Shown in pieces: positions 4,815 to 10,562 of a stretch of 64,000 bases of DNA. The stretch's first letter is position 1; each line of letters starts with the position of its first letter. The stretch covers positions 1-64,000 of the forward strand of contig JAPWUD010000003.1 of assembly GCA_028275705.1 (NCBI GenBank). Direction: 5' to 3'. Below the pieces are notes generated by a model that worked only from the letters and a program-made list of their open reading frames with translations, did not search any database and was not told the origin of the DNA. This stretch comes from Desulfurococcaceae archaeon (lineage in GTDB: Archaea; Thermoproteota; Thermoprotei_A; Sulfolobales; Desulfurococcaceae). The position numbers and the translations under genes were made by a program.

Positions 4815-5558
4815 CTAACTAGTCTTCTTGGTTAACTCCATTAATTCCCCTATCACGCGGAGTTGCCGCTTATCAGGTGTTAAAAGCTCCCAGTATATCC
4901 CCCTCGGCCTGTACTTAAACCTCTCATCTAGTTTTACAAGTCTAGAGGGTGTTGCATAGTAGTCTACTGTGTAGTCGTGTACTTCGAGTGGTATATCATC
5001 GTGGACTACCTGGAGGTCATGGATTGTAGTGACTATAGGGGTGGATTCGTCAATAACGCCGAGCTCTCGGAGAATACCATACTCTAGCTCAGAGTAGCCC
5101 CCTCCCTTACCTAGTCTAACGCCTTTTCCATTTACTGCTACGCAGCCGGTTATGATCAAGTCTATTCTAGGCATCTCCCTCAGTGAAATCAGCCTTCCAT
5201 ACTTGAAAGCCCCAGCAATTGTGGCTGCCTGTGGTAACTTATATTGAGGTATAAACCTGGGGTCAAGGATTATGAAGCCATTTAAGAGGCGGGGTGTAGC
5301 CATGACTACTACTTTACCCTCTCTCAGTGCTTGTAGTCTGAGGTGGTATTGTGGAGAGTCTGGGTTTGATTTAACAACAAATGCTTTACTCCACTCACTC
5401 AGTTTAATTAACATTCGTGCTGCCGTGTCAGCGCCCTTAAAGTTAGGTATTCTACCGTGTACTGGTCTTGGGAAGAGGGCTACGTTGCGTTCTTCGAGGA
5501 GGTCCCATATCTTCCTCCTCAATTGATCTTTTACTTTTTTAACCTCTACACCGCTCAT
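4815..5558 (-). CDS. 5-formyltetrahydrofolate cyclo-ligase family protein
   Basis: LGKGGGYSELEYGIL motif; start placed at internal Met (MSGVEVKK). Confidence 0.75.
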   Translation of the reverse strand: MSGVEVKKVKDQLRRKIWDLLEERNVALFPRPVHGRIPNFKGADTAARMLIKLSEWSKAFVVKSNPDSPQYHLRLQALREGKVVVMATPRLLNGFIILDPRFIPQYKLPQAATIAGAFKYGRLISLREMPRIDLIITGCVAVNGKGVRLGKGGGYSELEYGILRELGVIDESTPIVTTIHDLQVVHDDIPLEVHDYTVDYYATPSRLVKLDERFKYRPRGIYWELLTPDKRQLRVIGELMELTKKTS

Positions 5559-5615
5559 TCCAGTACCAACCACTTCACCTATATTTTTATACACACGTTT
5601 TCGATAATTAACAAA

Positions 5616-6284
5616 GTGGTGTTTAACTTGTACCCGGTTCTACAGGTGGCGCTCGACCTCGAGGAGTTAGTTAAAGCTGTCGATATAGCTTCAAAGATAG
5701 CGACAGTAACGAAGTGTGAACACGTGTGGATCGAGGCTGGTACACCCTTAATTAAGTCGTGGGGTAGAATAGCAATAAAGGCTTTGAAAGAACTAACAAA
5801 CTGCTACCTCGTAGCAGACACTAAGACTATGGATGTACCATCTCTAGAGGCTAAAATAGTCTACTCAGCTGGTGCAGACGCGTTCACAGTTCTCGGTTTA
5901 GCTGATGAGGAAACCCTTAGAGAAGCTAGAGAAGTAAAGATGGATTTCAATAAAGCCTTGATAATAGACTTGATAGGGGTGAAAGACCCATATAGAAGAG
6001 CAGTAGAGGTTTCTAGGTATGAGCCAGACTTACTGCTCCTCCACGTGGGTATTAGTGTTCAAAGATTGAGAGGAGTTACTGGAGAGGAATTATTGAGTGA
6101 AGCAGCTAAAGTTAAAGAAGAACTTGGATTGAGAGTGGGGGTTGCTGGGGGCTTGAAGCCAGGCTCTATAAAGCCACTTATAGATAGAGGAGTGGACGTA
6201 GTGGTTGTCGGCTCAGCTATTACAAAGTCCAGTAAACCAAGTGAAGTAGTCTTGGAAATAATGAGGGAAATGGGTTATAAATAA
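5616..6284 (+). CDS. hps: 3-hexulose-6-phosphate synthase (OMP decarboxylase-like fold)
   Basis: LQVALDLEELVKA, ADTKTMD, VGVAGGLKPGSI, VVVGSAIT; likely GTG start inside the track ORF. Confidence 0.85.
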   Translation: MVFNLYPVLQVALDLEELVKAVDIASKIATVTKCEHVWIEAGTPLIKSWGRIAIKALKELTNCYLVADTKTMDVPSLEAKIVYSAGADAFTVLGLADEETLREAREVKMDFNKALIIDLIGVKDPYRRAVEVSRYEPDLLLLHVGISVQRLRGVTGEELLSEAAKVKEELGLRVGVAGGLKPGSIKPLIDRGVDVVVVGSAITKSSKPSEVVLEIMREMGYK

Positions 6285-7521: not shown

Positions 7522-9342
7522 CTACGTTGTTAAAGCTTTAGCGAGTCCTGGCGGTGTGTCTACGGGGAGTCCACGTGCTACTCCCGTGTGGTATGCTATT
7601 AATTGAAGTGCTAATGCGACGGAGACTGGGTAGAGGTATTTAGAGGATTGCGGTATTTCCATAGTAAGATACTTAGTCTTAAGCCTCGACTCTATCGATA
7701 TAATGTTCGCTCTCCTTGACTCTAGTTCACCCATTACTTTCAAGTAGAGTGGATGCGCTTGCTCTTCATAAGGCTCTATGAGGATAACGGGGAATCTTGG
7801 AGTTATTATAGATACTGGTCCATGACGAAGCTCACCGAGTTGATACCCCTCGGCGTGGAGTAGTGAGGCCTCCTTGATCTTTAAAGCCCCCTCAATCGCG
7901 ACGGGGTACGCTATACCACTACTAGTAATGTATACCCCTATAGCATCCTTTAGTTCACGCGCCACTTTAACCGCCTTCTCCTCAATTAATGGAATATACT
8001 CCTTCAACTTCTTACTGTGGCTCCGTACCTCGTCGACTAAAGCCTTGTGATCATCCATTTTACGCAGTCCCGAGAAAACACCAGTGTAGGATGCAAGTAA
8101 GAGTAGTGCTATGAGAGTTGAGGTAAAAGTCTTTGTAGCTGGAACAGCGAGCTCCGGCCCCGCGCCAATAGGTAGGTATACATTTGACTCGAGTGCAAGC
8201 CTTGAACCAACGTTGTTCGTAATACCAATAATCACGGCCCCTCTCTGCTTAGCCTGCTTAACGCTGGTGATTACATCACTTGTTTCACCACTTTGACTTA
8301 TGGCGACAACCACTGTCCCCGTCTCAACGTTTTCCAGGGCTGAAAATGGAAACTCTGCTGCTGAGACAGGTGTAACTCCTAAACCAGCGAGTTCAGCGAA
8401 GTAGTATACAGATGCTTGTGCAGCGTGGTAGCTTGTCCCAGTTCCAATAACGTAGACTCTACTAGCTCTACGCAGTATCATCGCGGATAGTCTCAGGTAT
8501 TTCTCCATAATGGAGATCGTTGTGGATTGAATAGCTTCAGGTACCTCGTAGATCTCCTTGATCATGTAGTGGGGGAAGCCACCTTTATCAACAAATTCTA
8601 CAACATACTTAACTCTCTTAGATTGCAGCCTCTCCTCTCCCACTCTTTCACCTGTTTTTACATCGTAGACTTCTAGTCCATCCCGTGATAGAATCGCTAT
8701 TGTCTCATCTTCAAGGATGTAGGCGTATTCAGCGAAACCATATAGTGATGGTAGATCACTTGACACGTAAACACAGGATTTATCACTACTATACCCCACT
8801 ACAAGGGGTTGTCCGTGTTGTACGAGGTAAAGCTTTGCTTCCGGCGCTGAGAGGAATACGAGTGCATAGTTTCCCTTTAACTCTGCAGTAGCCTTAATCA
8901 ACGCTGATGCAGGGCTATGCCCAGCTGAGAGGTAGTCTTCGATGAGGTGTACAGCAACCTCGGTATCCGTTCTCGACTTAAATAAGTGGCCTTTCCTCTC
9001 AAGTATGGCTTTGTATTCTTCATAGTTCTCGATAATACCATCCCCGACTACAGCTAGTTTTCCACTGCAGTCAAGTAGTGGATGTGTATTCTCATATACA
9101 GGCCAGCCTCTACTAGCATAGCGTGTGTGTCCAATGGCTATATTGGAGTCTATCTCCACGAAGTCTACTTGCTTAGAGATGTTTAGTAAGTGGCCGGGTG
9201 ACTTACGTACTTCTATTTTATCTCCTCGTAGGATCGCTACTCCAGCTCCATCATAGCCTCTATATATAAGTCGCCTAAGACCCTCAAAGATCGCCCCTCT
9301 TGGAATAATCTCTCTGCAGACAGCGCTGAATATTCCACCCAA
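7522..9342 (-). CDS. glmS: GlmS-type glucosamine-6-phosphate synthase with degenerate glutaminase domain
   Basis: GAT2-like N-domain (GHTRYASRG, RTDTEV) plus two SIS domains (GTGTSYHAA, SQSGETSDV, PPGLAKALTT). N-terminus is MGGIF, not MCGI. Confidence 0.92.
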   Translation of the reverse strand: MGGIFSAVCREIIPRGAIFEGLRRLIYRGYDGAGVAILRGDKIEVRKSPGHLLNISKQVDFVEIDSNIAIGHTRYASRGWPVYENTHPLLDCSGKLAVVGDGIIENYEEYKAILERKGHLFKSRTDTEVAVHLIEDYLSAGHSPASALIKATAELKGNYALVFLSAPEAKLYLVQHGQPLVVGYSSDKSCVYVSSDLPSLYGFAEYAYILEDETIAILSRDGLEVYDVKTGERVGEERLQSKRVKYVVEFVDKGGFPHYMIKEIYEVPEAIQSTTISIMEKYLRLSAMILRRASRVYVIGTGTSYHAAQASVYYFAELAGLGVTPVSAAEFPFSALENVETGTVVVAISQSGETSDVITSVKQAKQRGAVIIGITNNVGSRLALESNVYLPIGAGPELAVPATKTFTSTLIALLLLASYTGVFSGLRKMDDHKALVDEVRSHSKKLKEYIPLIEEKAVKVARELKDAIGVYITSSGIAYPVAIEGALKIKEASLLHAEGYQLGELRHGPVSIITPRFPVILIEPYEEQAHPLYLKVMGELESRRANIISIESRLKTKYLTMEIPQSSKYLYPVSVALALQLIAYHTGVARGLPVDTPPGLAKALTT

Positions 9343-9404
9343 TTAAAACCCCCTACTCTATATATTTGAAGGCAAGTATTTTATTACTAGGTTAATGCAG
9401 AGCG

Positions 9405-10004
9405 TTGTTTGCAATGTGTAGATATACTGTTATATTAATTGAGAGGCAAAGTGGAGACCGGGAGAAGAGGGGTTTTTGGAGTCTATTAGAGGAGAATTTA
9501 AGAGAATTCACTAGTGAAGAGGGAGTATTCTTCGTGTTGAAGCCTAACATAGTTATCGTGTTGTCGAATGGCATTAGTAGAGATAAGCACTTAGAGATAC
9601 ATAAAGTTCTTTCAAATAGTTCACTCCAAGTGCGGGTTGCATCTGTTCTACACGAGTCTCCTGTACTAGCATTAATTAAGGCATCTAAAATACTTGAAAG
9701 AAGTATTTTCTACTACGAGGAGGGTGAAGAAAAAGAATACATTATTGGATACTTCTCGTTCAAACCTAGAAGAGGGGGTAGTATAATAGATGAATTTATT
9801 CATAGACGCCTTATTCTATATAAAGTATTAAGGTTTCTAGAGTACACGGGTTCTCTGCCAATAGAGATTAGCATAAATAACGTTCTAGCCGTGTTAAGCA
9901 AGAAGAGTGAGGAATTAGTTGATGAACTAAAAGAAGACGTAGTATTGAAAACTGCCCGCGGTCTTCAGGCTAAGAGTTTGGTTAGTGAAGTAACTAGGGA
10001 GTGA
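9405..10004 (+). CDS. Hypothetical protein
   Basis: 199 aa ORF just upstream of the ZPR1-like gene, same strand. Confidence 0.6.
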   Translation: MFAMCRYTVILIERQSGDREKRGFWSLLEENLREFTSEEGVFFVLKPNIVIVLSNGISRDKHLEIHKVLSNSSLQVRVASVLHESPVLALIKASKILERSIFYYEEGEEKEYIIGYFSFKPRRGGSIIDEFIHRRLILYKVLRFLEYTGSLPIEISINNVLAVLSKKSEELVDELKEDVVLKTARGLQAKSLVSEVTRE

Positions 10005-10013
10005 TCAAGGGGT

Positions 10014-10562
10014 TTGTGGATGGAGAACTCGAATAGAGAGAAACTAGTTGAGTTATGGGAAGTAGTTTCCAAATGCCCCATGTGTGGTGGAAGGTTATTG
10101 ACAAGAGACTATAGGTATAATGCACCGTTAGTTGGTGATTTAATAATATCTGTATCTAAGTGCGAGGACTGCGGTTATAGACACACAGATGTATTTACTA
10201 TGGGGAGCGGAGAACCGAGAAAAGTAGTGTATAGAGTTGAAGTACAAGGTGATGATAGAGCATTAATTGTGAAAAGCTCTACTTGTAGAATAGAAATACC
10301 AGAACTCGGAGTTACAATAGAGCCGGGCTCTTATTCACAGGGATACATAACAACAATTGAGGGCATAATCCTAGATGTTAAGTCAATAGCGCAGAGTATA
10401 TGTCGAGATGAAGAAGCTCCTAGAGATAAATGTATAGAGGTATTAAGTCTACTTGAGAAAGCACATAATAATGAAATCCCCTACACAATAGTACTCTACG
10501 ACTACCTTGGAGTGTGTAATATCATTAGCGATAAGAAGAAACCAATTTATGAAAAACTATAG
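10014..10562 (+). CDS. ZPR1 zinc-finger domain protein
   Basis: CPMCGGRLLTRDYRYNAPLVGDLIISVSKCEDCGYRHTDVF. Confidence 0.85.
   Translation: MWMENSNREKLVELWEVVSKCPMCGGRLLTRDYRYNAPLVGDLIISVSKCEDCGYRHTDVFTMGSGEPRKVVYRVEVQGDDRALIVKSSTCRIEIPELGVTIEPGSYSQGYITTIEGIILDVKSIAQSICRDEEAPRDKCIEVLSLLEKAHNNEIPYTIVLYDYLGVCNIISDKKKPIYEKL

Follow-up and report, generated by a model that had tools for sequence, protein, structure and literature searches.

A glutaminase-dead GlmS paralogue of Sulfolobales/Desulfurococcales archaea with a predicted role in glucosamine-6-phosphate deamination

Introduction

GlmS, the glucosamine-6-phosphate (GlcN6P) synthase, is a drug target. Its glutaminase site has a sole catalytic residue, Cys1, its sugar chemistry is carried out by Glu488, His504 and Lys603, and the overall reaction is irreversible (PMC9272926). 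The enzyme is described as the only amidotransferase that does not accept ammonia as donor (PMC9272926). Trp74 and the C-tail close off its ammonia channel (PMC7948480). In human GFAT2, the isomerization of fructose-6-phosphate (Fru6P) to glucose-6-phosphate (Glc6P) is faster than the synthesis of GlcN6P (PMC7948480).

Here we analyze a GlmS paralogue, GlmS2, from a Desulfurococcaceae archaeon; the canonical copy is called GlmS1. Literature searches, mostly outside subscription journals, turned up no account of a paralogue of this kind.

Results

The gene and its start site

The window, i.e., the whole stretch of 64,000 nucleotides analyzed, carries on its minus strand the gene glmS2 (7522..9342), recognized from its open reading frame and by homologue comparison as a glutaminase-dead GlmS paralogue of 606 aa. 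The features of this gene given below are on the same strand. The gene starts with TTG (9342-9340), followed by GGT (9337..9339), which codes for Gly at the site of the catalytic Cys1. An in-frame TAA lies immediately 5' of the start codon (9343..9345), and the minus strand reads ...GGGGGTTTTAA-TTG-GGT-GGA-ATA across this region. This reading frame has no upstream in-frame start and no MCG can be made, in agreement with a first-pass annotation of this DNA, which had reported the same start, the stop before it and the impossibility of restoring MCGI. That annotation had also asked for resequencing of the start codon. The homologues answer this question: they begin at the identical residue, with two Gly codons after the ATG, GTG or TTG, so that the start codon in the window is right, and the change is a fixed one, found across an order. 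By eye, a GGGGG (9349..9353) is a possible ribosome binding site, and a similar GGGG(G) run is found just 5' of the homologues in three genomes of the same genus (G004, G002 and G007).

The N-terminal part, residues 1–240 (8623..9342), is a degenerate class II glutamine amidotransferase (Ntn) domain. Its motifs GHTRYASRG and VGDGIIEN are as the first-pass annotation had read them. In the former, which stands for GHTRWATHG, Tyr-Ala-Ser-Arg (9109..9120) replaces the canonical Trp74-Ala-Thr76-His77 of the ammonia-channel and glutamine-site loop; in the latter, an Asp codon (9040..9042) replaces that of the oxyanion-hole Asn98. Residues 250–606 (7525..8595) form the isomerase domain, with two SIS domains and intact catalytic residues. 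By alignment, these are the equivalents of Glu488 (7870..7872), of His504, responsible for ring opening (7822..7824), and of Lys603, in the C-terminal loop PPGLAK (7537..7539).

Some other genes on the contig are worth recording. Divergent from glmS2 is a gene for a 199-aa protein without Pfam match (9405-10004), conserved in 11 loci, and downstream of it a gene for an archaeal ZPR1-like protein, with a zinc-ribbon plus a jelly-roll (10014-10562). Also near glmS2, at 5457-6284, there is an OMPdecase/HUMPS-family protein, by eye likely a 3-hexulose-6-phosphate synthase. At the window's right edge a separate SIS protein (G000:C40:63887-64174) is, by eye, likely a 6-phospho-3-hexuloisomerase, and the two could be a split RuMP pair on one contig.

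Structure and family assignment

In the AlphaFold model of the window protein, the Ntn-type domain was kept in its entirety (mean pLDDT 88.6). Full-length superposition gave a TM of 0.54 with a large rmsd, the relative domain placement being different or uncertain, and the isomerase half alone reached a TM(target) of up to 0.89. On the GlmS equivalog model TIGR01135 the window protein scored 493.8 bits, above the cut-off of 418, and the canonical copy of the same genome 689 bits. On the curated GlmD and NagB-II models it remained far below the cut-offs (100 vs 580 bits and 125 vs 430 bits); those proteins have a single domain, and the window protein has 606 aa with a GATase-like domain.

Of the features that define GlmS, the Cys1 nucleophile and the Trp74 channel gate were missing from GlmS2, and in the oxyanion pair Asn98-Gly99 only Gly99 was kept, residue 98 being Asp (Glu once). 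Glu488, His504, Lys603 and the phosphate site were present and invariant. By strict membership GlmS2 is thus not a GlmS (EC 2.6.1.16), though the NCBIfam equivalog model names it so, and glutamine-dependent GlcN6P synthesis is predicted to be absent.

Two GlmS proteins in one genome

The window genome (1.47 Mb, 98.9% complete) encoded a second full-length GlmS (C4:34099-35898), 36% identical to the window protein and with the motifs LCGI, GHTRWATHG and VHNGIIENY, i.e., canonical C1, W74 and N98. The window protein is therefore a paralogue of the cell's GlmS rather than that GlmS itself. A GlmS of this second type was also found in 32/32 of the GlmS2-bearing genomes checked, at ~32–39% identity. 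In the aligned GlmS1 proteins of the order, Cys1, Trp74, Thr76, His77 and Asn98 were each present in 12/12. With GlmS1 present in addition to GlmS2, GlcN6P synthesis is already covered, and we rejected GlmS2 as a stand-in for a missing GlmS. The first-pass annotation, well supported in its reading of a dead glutaminase and an intact isomerase, had overlooked this second, canonical GlmS.

Distribution, fixed losses and selection

The GlmS2 profile matched 79/214 genomes of the order (E <= 1e-170), and in the class as a whole (229 genomes) only one more. The 79 together with G006, in which a contig end truncates the gene, make up the 80 GlmS2 genomes used in the co-occurrence counts. A scan of named genomes was dominated by canonical GlmS and gave three clade members: Staphylothermus sp. 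(L037), a Thermoprotei archaeon and a Thermoproteota archaeon. One GlmS from the Conexivisphaerales (L050, JAVBJD010000006.1) starts with MCRIF instead of MCGIF, having kept the Cys and lost the next Gly, with an intact VHNGVIENF. In a tree of the isomerase domain, all GlmS2 formed a single clade (100/100 support, stem 0.77), separate from the canonical archaeal and bacterial GlmS.

Within 34 aligned representatives, Cys1 was Gly in 34/34, residue 98 was acidic in 34/34 (Asp 33, Glu 1) and Trp74 was Tyr or Phe in 34/34; Arg73, Gly99 and Asp123 were retained. Thr76-His77 was kept in one subclade and was mostly Ser-Arg in the other, the window protein having Ser76, Arg77 and Tyr74. Ser303, Ser347-Gln348-Ser349, Thr352, Lys485, Glu488, His504 and Lys603 were invariant, as were the phosphate-binding SQSGET residues. 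The canonical C-loop Arg599-Asn600 was Pro-Gly in the subclade of the window protein. We considered Cys9 (in “AVCREI”) as a replacement nucleophile and rejected it, several clade members having Ser, Thr or Tyr there.

Compared with the very close genome G006, the window gene had a dN of 0.012 and a dS of 0.207 (266 shared codons). Against G004, the two halves gave a dN/dS of 0.13 (glutaminase) and 0.06 (isomerase), with dS saturated. Mean identity among eight genomes was 49% and 60% for the two halves of GlmS2, and 55% for both halves of GlmS1. These values indicate that GlmS2 is under strong purifying selection, with a dN/dS of about 0.06 in the isomerase half, and that the dead glutaminase half evolves faster, yet far from freely.

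The alignment of C1G and N98D with relatives, which the first-pass annotation had proposed as a check, thus returned Gly at every position 1 and an acidic residue at every position 98. Its view of the glutaminase half as a pseudo-enzyme and of the isomerase half as intact is well supported by the clade-wide conservation of both the losses and the catalytic residues. These comparisons show that the dead glutaminase of this GlmS is no artifact, that it is ancient and that the protein is under selection; in the GlmS2 copy, the glutamine-cutting residue is gone for good from a whole lineage of hot-spring archaea.

Genomic context

The commonest neighbor of glmS2 was an amidohydrolase, found in 15/40 neighborhoods, and the neighbors tested passed the NCBIfam nagA cut-off (TIGR00221; N-acetylglucosamine-6-phosphate deacetylase). 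Among the 214 genomes, 55 had both GlmS2 and NagA, 25 only GlmS2, 12 only NagA and 122 neither (odds ratio 22, relatedness ignored). By genus, the corresponding counts were 23, 3, 4 and 48, so that GlmS2 was present in 55/67 NagA genomes and 23/27 NagA genera, again ignoring relatedness. In two genera (g5 and g36), glmS2 and nagA were also missing together from some genomes. The two genes were <200 bp apart in 20/55 genomes from five families, 5 in tandem, 11 divergent and 4 convergent. This varying orientation shows that their adjacency arose, or survived rearrangement, several times.

An isomerase-only, two-SIS GlmD-like protein was found in 7/12 of the genomes with NagA and no GlmS2, vs 9/55 of those with both (p = 0.005). 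In G196 its gene overlaps the start of nagA by 4 bp, in an operon (L177:660-2722); upstream lies the gene of an ABC transporter ATPase. We found no support for deriving these proteins from GlmS2 by loss of the glutaminase domain, as they fell outside the GlmS2 clade in the tree, on long branches. AnmK, a catabolic amino-sugar kinase, was detected in 13/214 genomes, all with NagA, 9 of them with GlmS2 and 4 with a stand-alone GlmD-like protein. By these counts, NagA in this order is usually accompanied by an isomerase-type GlmS relative whose glutaminase is absent or dead. NagB (PF01182) gave no match in any genome (0/214, window genome included).

Some of these loci have further features. In three of them (L143:892-5266, L138:8919-12999 and L133:2-4912) AnmK stands beside a PBP4B-like serine hydrolase and nagA, and two of the three also have a PRK02947-type SIS protein. 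They resemble a bacterial cluster for scavenging cell-wall sugars, in archaea expected to be without peptidoglycan. In another cluster (L141, in G019), nagA and GlmS2 are joined by two SIS proteins, one stand-alone and GlmD-like, the other of the PRK02947 type, so that four candidate amino-sugar steps are encoded side by side; G027 shares its arrangement of nagA, SIS and GlmS2.

In the window genome (98.9% complete) we looked for nagA, a PIG-L deacetylase and AnmK, and found none of them. In the window species and in several relatives that lack them too, glmS2 is nevertheless conserved, in a stable neighborhood beside a tryptophanyl/tyrosyl-type tRNA synthetase gene. PIG-L (Dac) as a general source of the missing substrate would account only for a part of the cases, being present in 8/25 of the genomes with GlmS2 and no NagA. 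With neither NagA nor PIG-L in 17/80 GlmS2 genomes, GlmS2 is not obligately tied to these sources.

Discussion

Proposed function

We consider it moderately likely that GlmS2 is a glutaminase-less GlcN6P deaminase, i.e., a GlmS running backwards. In this full-length, anciently diverged paralogue, Cys1 was replaced by Gly, Asn98 by Asp or Glu, and the channel-sealing Trp74 by Tyr or Phe, once, in a common ancestor. With the sugar chemistry kept, and with the nucleophile Cys1, the oxyanion Asn98 and the sealing Trp74 lost, the uncoupled reaction of the isomerase half should be reversible (GlcN6P + H2O <-> Fru6P + NH3). Following NagA, its direction in the cell would be the catabolic deamination of GlcN6P, and GlmS2 would fill the role of NagB, absent from the order. 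The retained glutaminase-like domain would probably serve structure, dimerization or ligand-dependent control.

Our confidence goes no higher because the window species and several relatives lack nagA, PIG-L and AnmK. Either GlmS2 acts there on GlcN or GlcN6P of some other origin, or its function is wider than that of a partner of NagA. Two further findings count against a deaminase: nine genomes with NagA and GlmS2 also carry a stand-alone GlmD-like protein, and a full glutaminase-like domain, needless for a deaminase, is retained (49% mean identity in the clade). The invariant Gly1, the acidic residue 98 and, in one subclade, Arg77 bring up a more specific and rather doubtful idea, namely that the dead domain was rebuilt as a ligand-sensing control domain, in a full-length, GlmS-derived deaminase supplying the order's missing NagB step.

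Alternative functions

The first-pass annotation had suggested that the protein uses free ammonia or an external ammonia donor, a reading that is not the best supported one. As an ammonia-dependent GlcN6P synthase, GlmS2 would run forward on NH3, either free or supplied by another protein, and make amino sugar at high ammonium and low glutamine. Hot environments can be rich in ammonium, the isomerase residues are intact, and with no deacetylase in the window genome a catabolic source is not evident there. This function is nevertheless unlikely, given the reported inability of GlcN6P synthase to use ammonia (PMC9272926), the second GlmS in all 32 genomes checked and the catabolic character of the association with NagA and AnmK.

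GlmS2 might instead be an isomerase or deaminase for another sugar phosphate (e.g., another amino-hexose phosphate), with the neighboring NagA sharing that sugar. The SIS family is versatile, the Fru6P to Glc6P isomerization by human GFAT2, faster than its GlcN6P formation (PMC7948480), is a case in point, and other sugar genes (Gfo/Idh oxidoreductase, epimerase, a second SIS protein) are sometimes found around glmS2. We find this improbable, since the NagA neighbors scored above the curated TIGR00221 cut-off, the sugar-site residues checked were identical to those of the order's canonical GlmS, and the window genome encodes a dedicated PGI/PMI. With the latter present, a plain Fru6P/Glc6P isomerase is not needed, and we rejected GlmS2 as a substitute for PGI.

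Pseudo-enzyme subunits being a known theme, GlmS2 could also form a heteromer with GlmS1 as its regulatory or stabilizing partner and use the dead glutaminase domain as a sensor; this domain is retained in full and conserved, and an acidic residue is never missing from its old glutamine site. However, all isomerase catalytic residues are kept, which would be superfluous for a mere partner, many genomes of the order have GlmS1 without GlmS2, and GlmS2 tracks NagA, making such a role quite improbable. Sequencing error or a decaying pseudogene has nothing in its favor except the odd residues themselves, and is practically negligible with the changes fixed over 34 aligned homologues, intact relatives without stops or frameshifts in about 80 genomes and a dN/dS of about 0.06.

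Implications

If GlmS2 is indeed a deaminase, a biosynthetic amidotransferase became catabolic through loss of the part responsible for the irreversibility of its reaction, and the unassigned GlcN6P deaminase step of amino-sugar breakdown is filled in for a NagB-less archaeal order (Sulfolobales/Desulfurococcales). Because the NCBIfam glmS equivalog accepts GlmS2, databases will call such proteins glutamine-dependent synthases, a systematic misannotation. As natural full-length homologues without Cys1, they are helpful for teasing apart the glutaminase and isomerase functions.

Comparison with known systems

The best match of GlmS2 in both fold and sequence is GlmS/GFAT (EC 2.6.1.16; E. coli GlmS PDB 2j6h, C1A mutant 3ooj), with which it shares the full-length two-domain architecture and the isomerase residues Glu488, His504 and Lys603. 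It differs in having Gly for Cys1, Asp for Asn98, Tyr for Trp74, Ser for Thr76 and Arg for His77, in coexisting with a canonical copy and in being linked to nagA in relatives. Archaeal GlmD and bacterial NagB-II, of the SIS family, have a homologous isomerase domain and catalyze the reaction proposed for GlmS2, and GlmD-like proteins occupy its genomic niche beside nagA in relatives. Unlike GlmS2, they have no glutaminase domain at all; the window protein scores far below their cut-offs, and in the tree the order's own stand-alone GlmD-like proteins are placed outside the GlmS2 clade. GlmD and NagB-II, as relatives with the isomerase domain only, provide the precedent for the deamination proposed for GlmS2. 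NagB (PF01182), an unrelated family, has only the proposed function in common with it. Beta-lactam synthetase and similar relatives of AsnB also kept the class II fold, lost the N-terminal Cys and took on a new role; their synthetase half and chemistry differ from those of GlmS2. GlmS2 has a known architecture, that of GlmS, and its proposed role is GlmD-like.
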